This document shows, piece by piece, positions 2,955 through 10,829 of a stretch of 39,643 nt of DNA (within the stretch, counting starts at the first letter, position 1; each line of letters starts with the position of its first letter). The stretch covers positions 1 to 39,643 of the forward strand of contig WRIU01000014.1 of the NCBI GenBank assembly GCA_009782565.1, given 5' to 3'. The notes under the pieces were generated by a model. That model worked only from the letters and a program-made list of their open reading frames with translations. It searched no databases and was not told the origin of the DNA. A program made the position numbers and the translations under genes. This DNA comes from Betaproteobacteria bacterium (GTDB lineage Bacteria > Pseudomonadota > Gammaproteobacteria > Burkholderiales > Rhodocyclaceae).

Positions 2955-4025
2955 TTATTCTTTTTCAGGAAAAAGAAAGGAAGCAATGACACCGGCAGAC
3001 AGCATACCAAGAACAATGACAAGGCTCCATCCCGGCGAGAGATGGAGGCCGGTGTCGGAAACGGCGTGGTTCCAGGATTGAAGTGCCATTTTCGCGCCGA
3101 TGAAGAAGAGCAGCCCAATGACGGCCTTTTCGAGGTGCACAAGATACTTGGTGAGCGCGGCCAGCACGAAATAGAGGCTGCGTAGGCCGAGAATGGCAAA
3201 AATCATCGCGGCATAAACGAGCAATGGCTCCTGTGTGATGGCAATGACGGCGGGAACGGAATCGAAGGCGAAAGCGATGTCGGAGGTCTCGATAGCCATC
3301 AGGCACAAGAAAGCCGGGGTAGCATACAGAGCATCTTTACCTATTCCCCTCCCTGGAGGGGTGGCGCGAAGCGACGGGGTGGTCATTCCCCTCCCTGGAG
3401 GGGTGGTAGAAGTGGCCTGGAGCGCCGGGACGGTATCGTTGCCGGGAATCTGTGAGTGGCGGATGAAGAAGCGATTCAGGTGCAGTTTGGTGTAGATGGG
3501 GAGCAGTCTGCCGGTAAGCCGGACAGACCAGTGGTTAGAGTAGTCTTCGATCTCTTCCTCGTGATCGGGCTGTTGCAGCATTTTGAACGCGCTCCAGATC
3601 ACGAAAGCGGCGAACATGAATCCTACCCAGGGGCTTGCGTGGAAGAGCCCTGTCCCGATGACGACGAAAATGGCGCGAAAGACCAACGCGCCAATGATAC
3701 CGTAGTAAAGAATGCGGTGTTGCAGGACGCCCTTGATGCTGAATGAGGCGAAAATAGCCATGAAAACCATCAGGTTGTCGACCGAGAGAGATTTTTCGAG
3801 CGCGTAACCCGCGAGGTAGAGATCGGCCCATGTTTTGCTGAAACGAACCCACAGATAACCATAGAACACGAGCGCAAGGGCAACCCAGAACAGCGTCCAG
3901 TAAGCGGCGTCTTTCAGCGAAATTTCAGTGCTTTTCTTATGGGCAAAGAGGTCGAGATAGACGGAGAGGGCGACGATGCCGACAAAGATCAGTATTGCTT
4001 CCAGCGGGAAGCCGAAGTGTTCCAT
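2955..4025 (-). CDS. TerC/Alx-family integral membrane protein with an in-frame repeat insertion
   Basis: This 356-residue protein has about eight hydrophobic segments and the TerC-family core. The acidic membrane motif EKSLSVDNLMVF is in the first half; the matching ETSDIAFAFDSVPAVIAI and FAILGLRSLYF segments are in the second half. TerC/Alx proteins act in metal (especially manganese) export or tolerance, and often serve exported metalloenzymes. I chose the ATG at 4025 (protein start MEHFGFPLEA) over an in-frame start 17 codons upstream because AGGAAA precedes it and the family starts there. Residues about 207-228, in a loop before the second half, are encoded by a palindromic repeat (3343-3407). 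This gives the sequence TPPGRGMTTPSLRATPPGRG, which is foreign to the family. It is probably cotranscribed with the downstream metallo-hydrolase. Confidence 0.88.
   Translation of the reverse strand: MEHFGFPLEAILIFVGIVALSVYLDLFAHKKSTEISLKDAAYWTLFWVALALVFYGYLWVRFSKTWADLYLAGYALEKSLSVDNLMVFMAIFASFSIKGVLQHRILYYGIIGALVFRAIFVVIGTGLFHASPWVGFMFAAFVIWSAFKMLQQPDHEEEIEDYSNHWSVRLTGRLLPIYTKLHLNRFFIRHSQIPGNDTVPALQATSTTPPGRGMTTPSLRATPPGRGIGKDALYATPAFLCLMAIETSDIAFAFDSVPAVIAITQEPLLVYAAMIFAILGLRSLYFVLAALTKYLVHLEKAVIGLLFFIGAKMALQSWNHAVSDTGLHLSPGWSLVIVLGMLSAGVIASFLFPEKE
3343..3407. repeat. 42-base palindromic repeat plus half unit, inside terC
   Basis: A full 42-base unit (3343-3384) is followed directly by the first 23 bases of a second unit (3385-3407). 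Each unit begins with ATTCCCCTCCCTGGAGGGGT, a perfect 7-base hairpin with a 2-base loop. In the full unit this is followed by a second small hairpin around a GAA loop (GCGCGAAGCG). The same unit recurs in tandem at 22491-22574 between fliG and fliH, differing by a single base in the first copy. Within terC it is read in frame as 14 codons per unit. Confidence 0.85.
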
Positions 4026-4045
4026 GACGTTTCCTGTTGTTGCAT

Positions 4046-4092
4046 CCCCTCTCCCGCTTGTGGAGAGGGCGCCCAAAAGGGGCGGGAGAGGG
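4046..4092. repeat. Alternating palindrome upstream of terC
   Basis: CCCTCTCCCGC at 4047-4057 can pair with its exact complement at 4082-4092. Alternatively, its CCCTCTCC part can pair with GGAGAGGG at 4062-4069. The element lies in the 104-base gap between the CHAP gene and terC. Its style (C-rich arm, G-rich arms, GCGCCC spacer) resembles the dispersed palindromic repeats of many proteobacterial genomes and is loosely similar to the 42-base unit found in terC. No U tract supports a terminator role. Confidence 0.55.
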
Positions 4093-4129: not shown

Positions 4130-4732
4130 TCATCTTGCGTGGGTTGTTATTTCATCATTTTTTCGCAGCCAACCCAAAATTCGACTTTTTTCAATGCTCC
4201 ATAATCCATTCTGAAAATTCACCGGGATATTGATTCTCGACTTCTCAAATAAACCTGGATTTTGTTGGATGATTTCAATTTCATCATCCTTGACTTCTGA
4301 GATAATCGCCACATGACCGTAGCGATTCCCTCCAAAAATCAGCAAATCACCAACCTTTGGCTGAGATTGGCTAGGATTCCTGTACTGAGTTAATGCACGT
4401 TTTTCATTAAAATCCCCGTCCTTGAGATTGCTGTTAAAAAAATCTTTCGCGTGACCATACGAATCCGGCATTTTGTGATGGTAATATTCATAGTAATAAC
4501 GCTTCACGAATTCGACACACTGGTATTTTTGACCTAAATTATAATTATCGGCAGTCACATTGCGCCCTGAAACATTACTGACCGAACCATTGTAATAAAC
4601 ATTCACGCCATTGAAATTATCAATAACGTCACCAATCATGTGATCACTGAATACCTGAGTGTTCTCAATCATAATAAAAACGATTGCAGCTAGAATCAGC
4701 ACACCCAAAATGAGCAAAAGTTTGCGTTTCAT
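4130..4732 (-). CDS. CHAP-domain (cysteine peptidase/amidase) protein, membrane-anchored
   Basis: The 200-residue protein starts with a short basic end and a hydrophobic helix (LLLILGVLILAAIVFIMI), which is either a signal anchor or an uncleaved signal peptide. The rest is a CHAP-type domain: the catalytic Cys is in GQKYQCVEFVKRYYYEYY at about residue 72, the catalytic His in RYGHVAIISEV at about residue 140, and a polar third residue in IEIIQQNPG. CHAP enzymes cut peptidoglycan peptides or related amide bonds, and the anchor suggests action in the periplasm. The coding DNA is markedly AT-rich and rich in Asn, Lys, Tyr and Ile codons compared with the flanking genes, which suggests horizontal acquisition. 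It lies upstream of terC on the same strand. Confidence 0.75.
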   Translation of the reverse strand: MKRKLLLILGVLILAAIVFIMIENTQVFSDHMIGDVIDNFNGVNVYYNGSVSNVSGRNVTADNYNLGQKYQCVEFVKRYYYEYYHHKMPDSYGHAKDFFNSNLKDGDFNEKRALTQYRNPSQSQPKVGDLLIFGGNRYGHVAIISEVKDDEIEIIQQNPGLFEKSRINIPVNFQNGLWSIEKSRILGWLRKNDEITTHAR

Positions 4733-4829
4733 GTTAGCTTAATATTATAATAGAAAATTGGCGTGTCGTCGTCATCTGCTTCAGCCGACTGATATCAGGA
4801 GGCATCCTGGGAAAATTTTTTGATATGGC

Positions 4830-5459
4830 ATGATTTCCATCTACCAATTAAAGCCCGCTTTTCAAGGGCTATTGCGCCCGCTGGTGCGCCGCCTTGCAGT
4901 GGCGGGCGTAACTGCCAACGCAGTCACGATCCTGGCGATGATCGTTTCGATACTCATCGGGGGATGGCTCTACATCGTCAGATGCGATGCCCCCCTCTGG
5001 TATCTGCTTGTGCCGATCTGGATGTTTCTTCGCATGGTGCTGAACGCTGTTGATGGGATGCTTGCGCGCGAATTTGGGCAAAAAACGCCGCTCGGAGCCT
5101 ATCTCAACGAGCTATCGGATGTCATCTCGGATGCCGCGCTCTATCTGCCTTTCGCGTGGATCGCCCCTTTTAGTTGGCAAACCGTTTGTCTCATCATTGG
5201 GTTGTCTGTGGTCTCGGAAATGGCGGGTGCGCTCGGACCGATGGTCGGCGCGCCGCGCCAATATGATGGACCGATGGGCAAAAGCGACCGGGCTTTCCTG
5301 TTCGGTGCTCTGGGACTCTGGGCAGGACTGGCCGACGGCAAATTGCCGGACTGGGTTTTCTGGGTTATGGCCGTCGTTGTACCGCTCTGCATTGTTCTCA
5401 ACATATTCAATCGTATCTGTAGCGGTTTAGCGGCTATTTCATCAGGGAAAGGTTCATGA
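4830..5459 (+). CDS. ynbA: CDP-alcohol phosphatidyltransferase family protein (YnbA-like)
   Basis: This 209-residue membrane protein has several hydrophobic segments and the CDP-alcohol phosphotransferase signature at about residues 73-96. Such enzymes join an alcohol head group to a phosphatidyl moiety from CDP-diacylglycerol, releasing CMP. In the signature NAVDGMLAR-x8-GAYLNELSD, the first and third canonical Asp residues are Asn, while the second and fourth Asp residues remain. It is the first gene of a compact plus-strand run whose order (YnbA, YnbC, YnbD, then a CdsA-like YnbB) recalls E. coli ynbABCD, and its length is close to E. coli YnbA. The stop overlaps the next gene by 4 bases. 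The head-group substrate is unknown. The ribosome-binding site is weak. Confidence 0.82.
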   Translation: MISIYQLKPAFQGLLRPLVRRLAVAGVTANAVTILAMIVSILIGGWLYIVRCDAPLWYLLVPIWMFLRMVLNAVDGMLAREFGQKTPLGAYLNELSDVISDAALYLPFAWIAPFSWQTVCLIIGLSVVSEMAGALGPMVGAPRQYDGPMGKSDRAFLFGALGLWAGLADGKLPDWVFWVMAVVVPLCIVLNIFNRICSGLAAISSGKGS

Positions 5460-7207
5460 CACGCGTTGAAGAAAAACTCAATTTCACCACGCATGACGGG
5501 GTTGCCCTCTTTTACCGCCGCTGGCCTGCCACGACGGCTGCCCGACGCGGTGCGGTCGTGCTTTTTCATCGTGGTCACGAACACGGCGGGCGTATGGCGC
5601 ATCTGGTCGATGAACTGAACTTGCCCGATTTCGATTTTTACGCTTGGGACGCGCGCGGTCATGGCCTGTCGCCCGGTGTGCGGGGCGACTCGCCCAGCCT
5701 CGGGCATTCGGTGCGCGACATCCAGGCTTTCGTCGATCATCTCTGCAACACTTTTGACTTTCAGGAATCCGACATTGCGGTGGTCGCGCAAAGCGTCGGG
5801 GCGGTGCTGGTGAGCACTTGGGCGCACGATTACGCGCCACGCATCCGCTGCCAGGTACTCGCTTCACCTGCCTTCAAGGTGAAACTCTACGTGCCTTTCG
5901 CGCGCCCGGGCCTGCAGCTGTTGCGCTCCTTGCGCGGTAATTTCTTCGTCAACAGCTACGTCAAATCGAAATTCCTGACGCACGACCCAGAACGTCAGAA
6001 ATCCTTCGATTCCGACCCGCTCATCAGCCGCGCGATTTCGGTCAACATTCTGCTCGGCCTCTATGAAGCCGCCGAACGGGTGGTTTCGGACGCCGAGGCG
6101 ATCACTATCCCGACCCAATTACTGATTTCCAGCGACGACTGGGTGGTACACCACTGGCCGCAACACGCTTTTTTCGCGCGCCTGGGCACGACGGAAAAGG
6201 AGAAACATGTGCTGCCAGGTTTTTACCACGACACCCTCGGCGAGCTATACCGAGCCGACGCGGTTGCCAAGGTGCGTGATTTCATCCTGCGGAAGTTCGA
6301 CGCCCCATTCAACCGGCCCAGCCTGCGCGACGAGCACAAACACGGCCATACGTTCGAGGAGGCCAAGAACCTGTCCGTGCCATTTCCGCCCCTCTCGCCC
6401 AAAGGCATTTACTGGAGCACTTACAGGTTTTTGCTGAAACTTGCAGGGCGTTTGTCCGATGGCGTCAAGCTCGGCCATGCCACCGGGTTTGACTCCGGCA
6501 GTTCGCTCGACTACATCTATCGCAACACGCCTTCCGGGAAGGGGTTTTTCGGACGGTCTATCGACCGTATTTATCTCAACGCAATCGGTTGGCGCGGCAT
6601 TCGCCAGCGCAAGCTCCATCTCGAAGAAATACTGAAAAAGGTAATGAACGATCTGGAGCAGGAAAAACGCCCCGCGCGCATCCTGGACATTGCTGCTGGG
6701 CACGGGCGTTATGTGCTTGATGCGCTGCAATACGGCATGCGCCCTGAAGCCATCCTGTTGCGTGATTTCAACGAACTGAACATCGAAAAAGGCCGCGCCA
6801 TGATTACGGAGCGCGGCCTACAAAACATCGCCCGTTTCGAGAAAGGGGACGCATTCGACCGTAAAAACCTTGAGGCGCTCACCCCGAAGGCCACGGTAGG
6901 CATCGTCTCCGGCCTGTATGAACTCTTTACCGATAACGACATGCTTGCCGCTTCTCTGGCCGGTTTGCACAGCGCTATCGAAAAAGACGGCTACCTGATC
7001 TATACCGGCCAGCCTTGGCATCCTCAGCTTGAAATGATCGCCCGCGCCCTCACGAGCCATCGGGACGGCGTGGCCTGGGTGATGCGGCGCAGGACTCAGG
7101 CCGAGATGGATCAACTTGTCCGGGAAGCCGGGTTCGAGAAGATCACGCAGAGAATCGACGAGTGGGGGATTTTCAGCGTATCGCTTGCGCGACGAACAGG
7201 TAAATGA
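5456..7207 (+). CDS. ynbC: Alpha/beta hydrolase-SAM methyltransferase fusion (YnbC-like)
   Basis: The 583-residue protein is a two-domain fusion. Residues about 1-280 form an alpha/beta hydrolase of the monoacylglycerol-lipase type: YAWDARGHGLSPG in the strand-3 region, the nucleophile elbow VVAQSVGAV (Ser at about 104), an acid in ISSDDWVVHH, and a catalytic His in GFYHDTLGE. Residues about 390-580 form a class I methyltransferase with the SAM-binding motif RILDIAAGHGRYVLDAL. Architecture and length match E. coli YnbC. It overlaps ynbA by 4 bases (ATGA) and ynbD by 4 bases, so translation is coupled. In the operon it could deacylate a lipid or methylate a head group, but neither substrate is known. 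Confidence 0.85.
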   Translation: MTRVEEKLNFTTHDGVALFYRRWPATTAARRGAVVLFHRGHEHGGRMAHLVDELNLPDFDFYAWDARGHGLSPGVRGDSPSLGHSVRDIQAFVDHLCNTFDFQESDIAVVAQSVGAVLVSTWAHDYAPRIRCQVLASPAFKVKLYVPFARPGLQLLRSLRGNFFVNSYVKSKFLTHDPERQKSFDSDPLISRAISVNILLGLYEAAERVVSDAEAITIPTQLLISSDDWVVHHWPQHAFFARLGTTEKEKHVLPGFYHDTLGELYRADAVAKVRDFILRKFDAPFNRPSLRDEHKHGHTFEEAKNLSVPFPPLSPKGIYWSTYRFLLKLAGRLSDGVKLGHATGFDSGSSLDYIYRNTPSGKGFFGRSIDRIYLNAIGWRGIRQRKLHLEEILKKVMNDLEQEKRPARILDIAAGHGRYVLDALQYGMRPEAILLRDFNELNIEKGRAMITERGLQNIARFEKGDAFDRKNLEALTPKATVGIVSGLYELFTDNDMLAASLAGLHSAIEKDGYLIYTGQPWHPQLEMIARALTSHRDGVAWVMRRRTQAEMDQLVREAGFEKITQRIDEWGIFSVSLARRTGK

Positions 7208-8613
7208 ACATCCTCGGAGTTGCAGACGAAGACGCTCACTGGCTGCGTAAAGCCTTTGGGCGGGGTGTGCTCTGGCTCCTCTTCCTTGGGCCGTTTTTCT
7301 TTCTTACCTACGGCTTCGCCAACCAGCATGCTGCCCAGATAGATACTGCCTCCGGGGTGGGGAGCCTCGTTTTCGGCTGGGAGCGCCATGTTCCCTTGTG
7401 GCCCTGGACGATCATTCCGTATTGGTCGATCGACCTGCTCTACGGTTTCGCGTTTCTCTGCTGCCGCAACAAGGCGGCAACGAACCGCCTCGCCTTGCGG
7501 CTACTGAGCGCGCAGTTGATCTGCGTGGCCTGTTTTTTCCTGTGGCCGTTACGGTTTACGTTCGACCGTCCGGCTGTCGAAGGGATATTCGGCGCGCTTT
7601 TCAATGCGTTGACGAGTTTCGATTTGCCCTATAACCAAGCTCCCTCGCTACACATTGTTCTGCTCGTCATCATCTGGCGGCAATTCGCCGCATTTGCGGC
7701 TACGCGTACCGTGCGGGGGCTGATTCACGCCTGGGCACTGCTGATTGGCCTCTCGGTGCTTACCACATGGCAACACCATTTCATAGACATACCGACGGGA
7801 TTTGCCGTGGGTCTTCTTTGCCTCTGGCTTTGGCCGGAGGAAGGCAAGACCCCCTTGAAGAAAGCCGCAGTGCGCCGTCCGGCGCTCGCCTTACGCTATT
7901 TTATCGGGGCAGCGCTGTTTTTTGCCGGTGCAATCGGGCTGGGCGGCCTCGGCCTCTTTCTCTGTTGGCCCGCGCTCTCCCTGGCGCTTGTCGCGTTCAA
8001 CTACGCGTGGGCTGGCGCGGCGGGGTTCCAGAAACAGAACGGGCGATGCTCGCTCGCCGCAAAATGGCTTTTTGCGCCTTACACATTGGGAGCCTGGATC
8101 AATTCGCGGCTTTGGACGCGGAGCTATCCCGACCCCAGCCTGGTAGGCGACGGCCTCTGGCTTGGAAGACTTCCCACGGCGCGCGAATTCGCCGCTTGGG
8201 CAAAACAACGCGGCGGCAAGGCTGCACTTTTCGATCTAACCGCCGAACTGCCTGCTCCCAGGTTACCCGCTGGGGCAGCCTACACCGGCATGCCTTGCCT
8301 CGACCTCGTACCCGTCCCGGTGTCGTCCCGACCGGACGGCAATCTACTGGAAGCCATGCAGCAGTTGCTCATCCTGAAACGCGCCCATCCAGGTTGCGAG
8401 ATATGGGTCGCCTGCGCCTTGGGCGTGTCGCGTAGCGCCAGTGTCGTCGCCGCCTGGCTGTGTTCCACGCCAGAGAGCGCCGCCTGCATCGAAGATGCCG
8501 TAAAACAGGTACGGCTCGCGCGTCCGCATGCCGTGATCGGCCAGAATAGCATTGCGTGCCTCGAAGAATTTCGTGAAGGGTTCTATCGAAATGAACGCCA
8601 GATTGCAGAATAG
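7204..8613 (+). CDS. ynbD: PAP2-dual-specificity phosphatase fusion membrane protein (YnbD-like)
   Basis: The 469-residue protein has an N-terminal multi-pass membrane part with a PAP2-type lipid phosphatase signature: FDRPAVEG, then PSLHIVLL at about residue 148, then TWQHHFIDIPTGF at about 188. The C-terminal 150 residues form a tyrosine/dual-specificity phosphatase domain with the active-site loop VACALGVSRSA (C-x5-R). The residue before the catalytic Cys is Ala rather than the usual His. PAP2 and DSP domains each occur in phosphatidylglycerophosphate phosphatases elsewhere, so a role in dephosphorylating a lipid intermediate made by YnbA is reasonable but inferred. It starts with ATG at 7204, overlapping the ynbC stop. 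Confidence 0.83.
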   Translation: MNILGVADEDAHWLRKAFGRGVLWLLFLGPFFFLTYGFANQHAAQIDTASGVGSLVFGWERHVPLWPWTIIPYWSIDLLYGFAFLCCRNKAATNRLALRLLSAQLICVACFFLWPLRFTFDRPAVEGIFGALFNALTSFDLPYNQAPSLHIVLLVIIWRQFAAFAATRTVRGLIHAWALLIGLSVLTTWQHHFIDIPTGFAVGLLCLWLWPEEGKTPLKKAAVRRPALALRYFIGAALFFAGAIGLGGLGLFLCWPALSLALVAFNYAWAGAAGFQKQNGRCSLAAKWLFAPYTLGAWINSRLWTRSYPDPSLVGDGLWLGRLPTAREFAAWAKQRGGKAALFDLTAELPAPRLPAGAAYTGMPCLDLVPVPVSSRPDGNLLEAMQQLLILKRAHPGCEIWVACALGVSRSASVVAAWLCSTPESAACIEDAVKQVRLARPHAVIGQNSIACLEEFREGFYRNERQIAE

Positions 8614-8654
8614 TTTTTTTGTATTGATGATTTATTTGCTGTGGGGTTTCAATC

Positions 8655-9269
8655 ATGTTTGAAAAGACCCTGGCATCCATCTTTTGCGCCATTATCAGGA
8701 TATTGACCGGCGCGCGGGCAGTCTGGCGCGGCACACAACCCGAAACGCGGGCGCAGATCTATTACGCCAACCATCGCAGCCACGGTGACTTTATCCTCAT
8801 TTGGGCGATATTGCCCCCGGCGCTCAGGGCTGTCACCCGTCCGGTTGCGGGAGCCGACTACTGGCTCGCTGGCTGGCTGCGGCGTTACCTGATCGAGCGC
8901 GTGTTTCGCGGTGTGCTCATTGATAGGCACGTAAAACGTGGCGACGACCCCATCGGAGCCATGCTTGGACCACTTGAAGCAGGCGAATCGCTGATCGTGT
9001 TTCCCGAAGGTACACGCAACCAAGGCGATGGCATCCTGCCCTTCAAGCCAGGGATTCATCACCTGGCCGAAAAACGACCCGATACCGAATTCATTCCGGT
9101 CTGGATCGAGAACCTCGGGCGTGCCATGCCAAAGGGAGGAATACTGGTCGTACCTCTCTTGTGCACGGTGACAATCGGTACGCCGGTTACACTTGAACCA
9201 GGCGAACGCCGCGCCGATTTCCTTTCCCGTTGCCAGGATGCACTACTTGTCCTGGAACCTTCCGAGTAA
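8655..9269 (+). CDS. PlsC-like 1-acylglycerol-3-phosphate acyltransferase
   Basis: The 204-residue protein has the acyltransferase blocks of the PlsC family: motif I YANHRSHGDF (H-x4-D, catalytic) at about residues 38-47, motif III VFPEGTRNQGDG at about 115, and a following PVWIENLG segment. These enzymes transfer an acyl chain to a lysophospholipid or lysophosphatidate at the inner membrane. It lies 41 bases behind ynbD and just ahead of the CDP-diglyceride synthase, in the same direction. It would therefore supply or remodel the phosphatidate used by that enzyme. E. coli ynbABCD has no such gene, so this is an extension of the operon. It may instead act on the specific product of the operon. 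Confidence 0.85.
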   Translation: MFEKTLASIFCAIIRILTGARAVWRGTQPETRAQIYYANHRSHGDFILIWAILPPALRAVTRPVAGADYWLAGWLRRYLIERVFRGVLIDRHVKRGDDPIGAMLGPLEAGESLIVFPEGTRNQGDGILPFKPGIHHLAEKRPDTEFIPVWIENLGRAMPKGGILVVPLLCTVTIGTPVTLEPGERRADFLSRCQDALLVLEPSE

Positions 9270-9276
9270 ATCAAGC

Positions 9277-10233
9277 ATGAGTACCCTGGAATATTCTTCA
9301 TCGCATACCCTGTTGCTCGTCTTCGCAGGTATCACCGGATGCCTGTTTGTTGCCAGCCTCGTCGGGCTCATTTTGCGAATGTGCTTGACCGGAGGACGGA
9401 CGAACTCCGTCATCATCAACCTGAACGCGCGCATCAACGCATGGTGGGTCATGGTGCTCATCCTGGCATTGGCGTTCTGGGCAGGGAACACGGCCGTCAT
9501 CGTGCTCTTCGCTTTCATTTCTCTCCAGGCGCTACGGGAATACATTTCGGTGACATACACCCGGCGAGGCGACTACCGGGCGCTTCTCTGGTGTTTTTTC
9601 TTTTTTCTGCCCCTGCAATACTGGCTGATCGGCATTGGCTGGTATGGCTTGTTCTCAATCTTGATCCCTGTCTATGCCTTTCTGCTGCTTCCCATTTCAT
9701 CGACGCTCGGCGCAGACACGACGCGCTTCCTGGAGCGCGCCGCCAAGGTGCAATGGGGGCTGATGATCTGCGTGTATTGCCTCTCGCATGTACCCGCGCT
9801 GCTGGTGCTCGATATTGCCGGTTTCACCGGACGCAATTTGCAGTTGATCGTCTTTCTGCTACTGACTGTTCAGTCGAGCGACGTGTTCCAGTATGTGTGG
9901 GGCAAACTTCTGGGAAGCCGCAAACTTGCCCCGGAAATTTCTCCCTCAAAAACACTGGAAGGGCTCATCGGTGGCGTACTGACCTCGACTGCCGTAGGGG
10001 CGGCGCTCTGGTGGATTACGCCATTTACATGGTGGCAAGCTGCGCTGATTGCGCTAACGATCAACGTCCTCGGATTCTTCGGCGGTTTTGTGCTCTCGGC
10101 CATCAAACGCGATCGCGGCATCAAGGACTGGGGTCAGATGATCGAAGGCCACGGCGGAATGCTCGATCGCGTCGACTCGGTGAGTTTCTCCGCGCCGATC
10201 TTTTTTCATATCGTCCGGTATTGGTGGACCTAG
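9277..10233 (+). CDS. ynbB: CDP-diglyceride synthase paralogue (YnbB-like, CdsA family)
   Basis: The 318-residue protein has about eight membrane segments and the full phosphatidate cytidylyltransferase signature at its C-terminal end: SAIKRDRGIKDWGQMIEGHG continuing into GMLDRVDS. The family makes CDP-diacylglycerol from CTP and phosphatidate. An earlier in-frame ATG at 9193 would overlap the acyltransferase by 77 bases. I prefer the ATG at 9277, 7 bases after its stop, because the protein then begins like the family. In E. coli the YnbB paralogue is reported to share with CdsA a role in making the glycolipid MPIase, so this enzyme may serve a special lipid rather than bulk phospholipid. It closes the operon and converges with the DsbC-like gene. 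Confidence 0.85.
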   Translation: MSTLEYSSSHTLLLVFAGITGCLFVASLVGLILRMCLTGGRTNSVIINLNARINAWWVMVLILALAFWAGNTAVIVLFAFISLQALREYISVTYTRRGDYRALLWCFFFFLPLQYWLIGIGWYGLFSILIPVYAFLLLPISSTLGADTTRFLERAAKVQWGLMICVYCLSHVPALLVLDIAGFTGRNLQLIVFLLLTVQSSDVFQYVWGKLLGSRKLAPEISPSKTLEGLIGGVLTSTAVGAALWWITPFTWWQAALIALTINVLGFFGGFVLSAIKRDRGIKDWGQMIEGHGGMLDRVDSVSFSAPIFFHIVRYWWT

Positions 10234-10262
10234 AAATCGAGCTTTATGAATATTGCCCTTCA

Positions 10263-10829
10263 TTAAAAATCGGCTATCCGGATTTGGCGGTGTTCCTTCT
10301 CTAGCGAGTCGAATTTGCCTACTTTTTGTTTTACCTGAAACAGACGCGGTAAGCCCTGGATGCCCAATGTTTCCCCAAGTTCAAGATTTCTGTCGAGCGC
10401 CGAGGTGTCGCAATCGCCCGCGCCAGATGGCAGCCGGCGTTTCAGCATCCAGTCGTTCCAAGCTGCTGCGGGGTTGGGGTCGCACCATATGCGGCGGGAT
10501 TTGGTGATGGAATCGTCCGACAACAGGGGTATCAGGAAGGTGTAGAGGGTGACGTTGTCCAGGCGGTTCAGCTTTTTGTCCAGTTCGATGCAGTACGGGC
10601 AGTTCGGGTCTTCAAAGCTCACCAGGATTAGTTCGCCATTGCCGTGAACCTGTTTGAGGGCATCTTCCAGAGGAAGCCCGCTGAGTTCTATCGAGCCATC
10701 TACCCTGGCGAGCACGGCCAGGAGGATTTCTTCTGGCGTGACGGGCTCCTTGTCACGGGGACGGAAATAGAGGCTGGCGACTACACAAAGGATAAGGAGT
10801 GCGGCGACGAAAATGTCTTGTTTCTTCAT
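10263..10829 (-). CDS. DsbC-like thioredoxin-fold protein
   Basis: The 188-residue protein starts with a membrane anchor or signal peptide (MKKQDIFVAALLILCVVASLYF) and then a thioredoxin-fold domain with the active site FEDPNCPYCIELDKKL, a CPYC motif at about residue 77 in the DsbC/DsbG context. A probable cis-Pro lies in IQGLPRLF near the C terminus. Such proteins reduce or isomerise disulfides in the periplasm. It is shorter than DsbC and has only a short stretch where the dimerisation domain would be, so a monomeric reductase is possible. Its ATG follows the hisC TGA with no gap, which suggests cotranscription and translational coupling; a functional link to histidine synthesis is not evident. 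Confidence 0.78.
   Translation of the reverse strand: MKKQDIFVAALLILCVVASLYFRPRDKEPVTPEEILLAVLARVDGSIELSGLPLEDALKQVHGNGELILVSFEDPNCPYCIELDKKLNRLDNVTLYTFLIPLLSDDSITKSRRIWCDPNPAAAWNDWMLKRRLPSGAGDCDTSALDRNLELGETLGIQGLPRLFQVKQKVGKFDSLEKEHRQIRIADF

Follow-up and report, generated by a model that had tools for sequence, protein, structure and literature searches.

The gene cluster considered here lies on the plus strand at positions 4,830 to 10,233 of a 39,643-nt stretch of DNA (contig WRIU01000014.1 of assembly GCA_009782565.1; the whole stretch is referred to here as the window) from a member of the Rhodocyclaceae labelled Betaproteobacteria bacterium, and it resembles the ynbABCD operon of Escherichia coli. 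The source genome measures 2.27 Mb and is 99% complete, and the closest relatives of its gene C are found in metagenome-assembled genomes labelled Betaproteobacteria and Azoarcus sp., which are presumably of termite-gut origin. A preliminary description, prepared from the sequence alone, had read the cluster as an extended ynb operon encoding a side pathway for a phospholipid. Its five genes were found at exactly the coordinates and with the domains that it had given (open reading frames, Pfam), as follows:

4830..5459, plus strand: gene A, YnbA-type CDP-alcohol phosphotransferase, 209 aa (Pfam, BLASTP, AlphaFold model)
5456..7207, plus strand: gene C, YnbC-type alpha/beta hydrolase fused to Methyltransf_20 (Pfam, BLASTP)
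7204..8613, plus strand: gene D, YnbD-type protein with membrane PAP2 domain, transmembrane (TM) segment and dual-specificity-type (DSP) phosphatase (Pfam, alignment, AlphaFold model)
8614..8654, no strand: gap of 41 nt between D and E, the site of gene X in 67 of 69 comparable loci
8655..9269, plus strand: gene E, PlsC-like acyltransferase, 204 aa (Pfam, motifs)
9277..10233, plus strand: gene B, YnbB-type CDP-diglyceride synthase (Pfam, BLASTP)

The operon in the window and in its relatives

Genes A and C share a 4-bp overlap, and so do C and D; the spacing is 41 nt between D and E, and 7 nt between E and B if B starts at the ATG at 9277, which is the likelier start of a reading frame that is open from TTG 9193. 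Pfam matches are clear for A (CDP-OH_P_transf, PF01066, 40.2 bits versus a cut-off of 22), C (Methyltransf_20, 488 bits, and Hydrolase_4, 228 bits), E (Acyltransferase, 62 bits), and B (CTP_transf_1, 229 bits). In the window protein D, both DSPc (29 bits) and PAP2_3 (20 bits) stay below the cut-off; among aligned D orthologues, these domains are found at E<=0.1 in 29/29 and 26/29 proteins, respectively. As the preliminary description had noted, four of the five genes are shared with E. coli; A, C, D, and B have orthologues in K-12 (BLASTP identities of 46% to YnbA, 58% to YnbC, 39% to YnbD, and 41% to YnbB, i.e., 39-58%), which are likewise clustered on one strand. However, the E. coli order is A-B-C-D instead of A-C-D-E-B, and genes E and X are absent from that operon; E had no BLASTP match among the four K-12 Ynb proteins, the part of the E. 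coli genome that was searched. Elsewhere, the source genome encodes additional proteins with CTP_transf_1, CDP-OH_P_transf, and Acyltransferase domains, which are paralogues of B, A, and E, respectively, and this agrees with the view of the operon as a side pathway.

A scan with gene C gave 447 relatives, and the best 80 of these, together with E. coli and the window, constitute a set of 82 loci; because of this selection, counts over these loci lean to close kin. The order A-C-D-X-E-B recurs in 65/82 loci, and therefore the gene cluster is not due to chance. Gene X encodes an unannotated small membrane protein of ~140-175 aa, with three hydrophobic segments in both members scanned and no useful Pfam or PDB match. 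The comparable loci mentioned above are those that show D as well as an E or B further along, and the two that lack X are the window and its relative L001; a search for X in the D/E gap and in the whole source genome gave no match. In L001 and in another relative, L002, gene C is 90% identical to that of the window, and L002 retains X, so that the loss in the window looks recent. Since nearly all kin have X, the window carries an operon that misses a gene rather than an enlarged one, and the term "extended" in the preliminary description was misleading. Gene X, which is not in the window, and the motif of A treated below are both points absent from that description.

When 11 regions from the sampled genomes were added, counted as flank-sufficient by their length, 75 of 93 loci had enough flank, and all six genes were present in 69 of these 75. 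Flanking genes vary across 13 loci read by eye, and the six-gene set looks self-contained. Two flank families are frequent, namely, a metallophosphoesterase-like cluster (36/82 loci) and a cation-transporter-like cluster (27/82). Both lie upstream, in loci mostly labelled as Variovorax and kin, and both have one downstream occurrence as well, in a Pseudomonas locus (L055); they are taken as chromosomal neighbours and not as constant operon partners. The cation-transporter-like gene is found less than ~2 kb from the operon, upstream in 26 loci (e.g., L040:4033-4995) and downstream at L055:12551-13486.

Nested gene presence and a probable acyltransferase-containing core

Across a single set of 299 genomes from the phylum, the genes showed a nested distribution. 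A YnbA-type gene (>160 bits; next match 63 bits) occurs in 25/299 genomes, C in 17, every one of them among the A genomes, full-length D (>450 bits; next match 119) in 16, every one among the C genomes, and X in 14, all among the D genomes, while a 33-bit match in locus L114 suggests X in G253 too. By the hypergeometric distribution, the probability of such nesting is <1e-20 at each step, in a count that ignores kinship. The pattern hints, by one genome of the 299, at a dependence of D on C. In G204, the D-X pair lies ~41 kb away from A-C-E-B.

Eight genomes carry A and lack C. In six of these (G190, G298, G103, G262, G257, and G008), A, B, and E stand side by side without C, D, and X; in G110, A and B are broken, and G287 has a lone, divergent A-like gene. 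A survey of acyltransferase-containing operons, as had been proposed earlier, found E-type acyltransferases (E<=1e-30) in 42/299 genomes, including 22 of the 25 A-positive ones, and B adjoins E in 36/36 regional E-bearing loci examined. Because the six C-less genomes keep just these three genes, the acyltransferase, the CDP-diglyceride synthase, and the phosphotransferase look like the core of the operon. Gene E thus looks like a partner of the YnbB-type synthase and a core member, and not like an addition to a four-gene operon, so that the remark in the preliminary description that the acyltransferase makes the pathway logic clearer holds up, and the word "extra" does not. Judged from gene content, the E. 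coli operon looks like a reduced case without E and X. In two of the A+B+E genomes, similar-looking membrane proteins are encoded directly after E (L170:858-1397, minus strand, and L168:10035-10718, plus strand); the former has a VTT-domain match below the cut-off, and the latter has no Pfam match.

A phosphotransferase with asparagine at two metal positions

CDP-alcohol phosphotransferases are characterized by the signature DxxDGxxAR(x8)GxxxDxxxD, in which, according to the available parts of two studies (PMC8633023; PMC6506517), all four Asp (here D1 to D4) are metal ligands. Protein A has the family profile and fold, and yet departs from this signature: its motif reads N72-x2-D75-G-x2-AR-...-G89-x3-N93-E-x2-D97-x3-D101 (NAVDGMLARE...GAYLNELSDVISD), with Asn at D1 (N72) and D3 (N93). 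The pattern N-D-R-N-D-D was found in 89/92 A entries (88 by pattern, L112 by eye). Of the remaining three, two are the halves of a gene split by a frameshift (L047) and one is truncated at a contig end (L066), and their visible parts are without Asp at D1 or D3. Two CDP-OH paralogues in the source genome carry the canonical motif. Among the C-less loci, Asn/Asn is present in seven (the six intact ones and the G110 fragment), and in the divergent gene of G287, D1 is Ser and D3 is Asn. This last gene (L189:739-1407, minus strand; SLDGTLAVE...LNETGDILSE) neighbours what appears by eye to be a TagD/ECT-type cytidylyltransferase, a possible hint that a relative uses a CDP-activated head group.

A second family, weakly related to A, was found beside E and B in 13/22 further E-B loci. 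It has Asn at both sites in 12/13 members, the 13th lacking this stretch, and differs in that AR is changed to A-[VIM] (A-[VIM]-E for A-R-E) and Arg follows D4. Loci of this Asn/Asn family (L180-L184, L186, L187, L191-L194, and L200) contain the same acyltransferase and CDP-diglyceride synthase, and G043 has both families. G284 also matches the C profile, at 74 bits (L193:1602-2462, minus strand), ~2 kb from a second-family triad; this could be a stand-alone relative of the hydrolase.

The AlphaFold model of A has a mean pLDDT of 92, and its nearest solved relatives are phosphatidylinositol-phosphate (PIP) synthases, both by fold (Foldseek E 9e-5) and by sequence (E 1e-9). This likeness, together with NCBIfam scores of 67 bits for archaetidylinositol-phosphate synthase and 46 bits for PIP synthase, would fit an inositol-lipid pathway in which A makes PIP, the DSP domain removes a phosphate from it, and the PAP2_3 domain transfers phosphoinositol. 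A comparable logic is described, in the accessible part of the report, for Bacteroides thetaiotaomicron BT_1522-BT_1526, where a CDP-alcohol phosphotransferase is combined with a head-group phosphatase and an AUR1-like enzyme (the counterparts being BT_1522, which is the AUR1-like one, BT_1523, and BT_1525); that part also names an inositol-phosphate synthase and no dedicated acyltransferase or CDP-diglyceride synthase (PMC9246714). The NCBIfam scores of A are, however, far under the cut-offs of 180 and 170, and D1 and D3 are Asn. Mycobacterial PgsA1 (PDB 6h53/6h59) shares with A the fold and two phosphate-site arginines, of which one aligns with R195, and the other, R155, corresponds to R154 only by a one-residue shift of the hidden Markov model alignment. 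In contrast, D68 and D89 of PgsA1 (D1 and D3) are replaced by Asn, and its Arg94 by Val98; as far as the available text goes, this arginine is conserved in inositol-phosphate users and crucial (PMC6506517). Lastly, the Ino1 family was not found in the source genome, leaving no inositol-phosphate supply of that type, in a search whose controls gave a match in 6/14 cases, E. coli not among these. With no Ino1 and with Val98 at the inositol-phosphate Arg position, an inositol product is very unlikely.

In the phosphatidylserine synthase MjPSS, according to the excerpted results, activity is reduced or lost whichever of the four Asp is changed; extra Mg2+ partly rescues D41S, D62S, and D66N, and rescue of D62N, the change at D3, is negligible or absent (PMC8633023). 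By analogy, A may have either changed its chemistry, changed its acceptor, or lost catalysis. The last of these would make A a catalytically dead CDP-diglyceride binder (a carrier, regulator, or scramblase), with the operon remodelling the phosphatidate and CDP-diglyceride pools and attaching no head group. Asn at D1 and D3 in both phosphotransferase subfamilies and the badly impaired D62N variant, so far as that paper could be consulted (PMC8633023), are consistent with this, but the strong conservation of D75, E94, D97, D101, K151, R154, and R195, all kept in A, speaks for a retained active site and renders a dead binder unlikely. Since the head-group enzyme has an altered metal-binding site, the product may be an undescribed lipid. 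In a tentative extension of this idea, YnbA and its sister family could form a separate phosphotransferase class with its own acyltransferase and CDP-diglyceride synthase, building a phospholipid with an undescribed linkage or head group (e.g., phosphatidyl on a phosphate, not on an alcohol), of which C, D, and X would be stepwise elaborations. For specialists, the Asn/Asn class would be the unexpected finding, and it raises a testable question, namely how, or on what acceptor, a phosphotransferase works with residues that impair the canonical enzyme.

A probable accessory phospholipid pathway and the rival products

In C, D, E, and B, the presumed catalytic residues are near-invariant across the aligned loci. 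Ser113, Asp228, and His258 of C are near-invariant, and the DSP domain of D has Cys404...Arg410. Both HX4D (His40, Asp45) and FPEGTR, which are taken to be PlsC-type acyltransferase motifs, are intact in E, and so is the CDS signature of B, presumably the mark of CdsA-type synthases. The N-terminal part of D contains RP, PSLH, and HHxxD, assumed to be PAP2-type motifs; among solved structures, phospholipid phosphatase 1 is the best match to this part in sequence (E 0.016). The model of D has a mean pLDDT of 87, and its C-terminal part groups with DSP phosphatases by fold search and by sequence. Such phosphatases were among the top 50 of 418 fold matches, and this comparison gave no structural verdict on the PAP2 part.

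By a crude hydropathy and charge count, the PAP2 motifs of D lie on the outer side, and the loop that follows TM6 on the inner side. The TM and DSP segment of D recurs in 8/299 genomes within frames of ~540-570 aa, and the one that was checked consists of DSP, DAGK_cat, and YegS_C. This arrangement resembles the PRK12361 family (a fusion of DSP and diacylglycerol kinase; 55.5 bits to D in NCBIfam), in which the TM and DSP part (profile ~218-440) is homologous to that of D, and DAGK_cat and YegS_C take the place of PAP2 in that one member. Such lipid kinases use ATP. Since the same segment is fused to an ATP-using kinase, the DSP part is probably cytoplasmic, and we infer a two-sided topology in which the PAP2 motifs would be periplasmic; the model contains one long helix (226-275), a segment that may cross the membrane once or twice. 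A PAP2-only relative of D occurs in G222 (L177:4372-5025, plus strand), in a cluster that by eye includes a ketoacyl synthase, an epimerase, a metallo-hydrolase, an adenylate-former, and two desaturases, perhaps for another unusual lipid.

Taken together, the operon probably encodes an accessory phospholipid pathway, which would make a membrane lipid, likely a minor one, with its own enzymes. At the cytoplasmic face, E would acylate lysophosphatidate to phosphatidate, B would convert this to CDP-diglyceride, and A would move the phosphatidyl group to an acceptor via its altered Asn/Asn metal site. Subsequently, C (hydrolase and methyltransferase) and D may trim, methylate, or transfer parts of the product of A, and X, where present, may assist D; the pathway of the window would run without X. 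Beyond the CDP-diglyceride of YnbB, we infer all substrates, as well as the order in which C and D act. The pathway agrees in outline with the line from lysophosphatidate to a head-group product that was suggested for a dedicated lipid earlier, and is refined here to a core of E-B-A with C, D, and X as add-ons. Gene content, order, conservation, nesting, and intact motifs are direct observations, and support for the pathway comes from the conserved order, the nesting, the A+B+E genomes, the E-B adjacency, the D and X pair of G204, the paralogues, and the reuse of the DSP segment with a lipid-kinase domain, as well as from YnbB of E. coli, which makes CDP-diglyceride in vitro but cannot carry bulk synthesis (PMC7018664, PMC6362211).

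Several points weigh against this pathway. In 9/22 further E-B loci, no A-type gene was found in the 12 kb read, and thus the E-B pair can serve another purpose. The nesting statistic is blind to kinship, and its C-to-D step amounts to one genome (G296); locus L059, with A-C-E-B and no D in its 12.6 kb, the extent that was searched, points the same way as G296. The NCBIfam AGP_acyltrn score of E, 47.6 bits, is below the cut-off of 102.95 for lysophosphatidate acyltransferases, so its acceptor may differ. Because Asn stands at D3, a substitution by which MjPSS is impaired in the D62N variant, A may be unable to carry out the canonical reaction. The open-access papers searched name neither a product nor a head group for Ynb proteins. 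According to the portions available of PMC7018664 and PMC6362211, a ynbB knockout in otherwise normal E. coli is without a growth, phospholipid, or MPIase defect.

The same two reports bear on a different role, namely, back-up synthesis of an MPIase-type glycolipid anchor (N-acetylglucosamine-PP-diacylglycerol), for which B would supply CDP-diglyceride and A or B would join the sugar phosphate. In their accessible sections, YnbB overproduction raises MPIase and, in CdsA-depleted cells, restores MPIase and not phospholipids, and in Tam41-expressing cells the loss of YnbB leads to the accumulation of export precursors; deletion of ynbB alone, however, leaves MPIase unchanged (PMC7018664, PMC6362211). 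Similarly, ynbB was a hit in transposon-directed insertion-site sequencing (TraDIS) of a strain that makes only phosphoglyceride-linked enterobacterial common antigen, but was later found not necessary for this antigen, as given in the excerpt of that paper (PMC8609368). As this role also leaves A, C, D, E, and X unexplained, it is regarded as improbable. A back-up route to phosphatidylglycerol, with A as phosphatidylglycerophosphate (PGP) synthase and D as a PTPMT1/PgpB-type PGP phosphatase, would fit the overall set of enzyme families, and the DSP domain has PTPMT1 as one of its solved relatives. On the other hand, PgsA matches A poorly (E 0.16 by sequence, 0.11 by fold), the source genome has a separate canonical PgsA-like gene, and E. 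coli YnbD, in the part of the study available, fails to complement the loss of PGP or undecaprenyl pyrophosphate (C55-PP) phosphatases (PMC7413402); given this lack of complementation, such a route is extremely doubtful. The inositol-lipid, phosphatidylglycerol, and MPIase readings are all ranked low on the evidence above.

Ynb-type operons are already known, whereas a search of open-access papers, which did not extend to subscription journals, turned up no mention of the core, the nesting, X, or the Asn/Asn motif. Salscheider, in 2014, is said to have described activation of ynbA by BglJ-RcsB. In the visible parts of other studies, ynbA appears in a table of insertions affecting cyclic di-GMP (PMC13031359), ynbC among the genes listed as altered in persistence (PMC13313352), and ynbA as 3-fold up in work on acid tolerance, which also cites the BglJ-RcsB activation (PMC12871917). 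If E. coli has a reduced version of a six-gene cassette built on an acyltransferase, CDP-diglyceride synthase, and phosphotransferase core, this would tell which genes to co-express, and why studies of individual ynb genes may have yielded no product.

Some features upstream of the operon in the window were recorded as well. At 4795-4820, just upstream of A, a terminator-like hairpin followed by a T run covers AGGAGG; this may reflect leader control or chance, as 14 such sites were counted in 4600-10400 versus 7.6 expected. Divergent from the operon, 4130-4732 (minus strand) encodes a CHAP-domain protein with weak similarity to the amidase part of glutathionylspermidine amidase/synthase. At 2955-4076 (minus strand), a TerC/Alx-type gene contains in-frame TPPGRG repeats, possibly a small repeat element within the reading frame.

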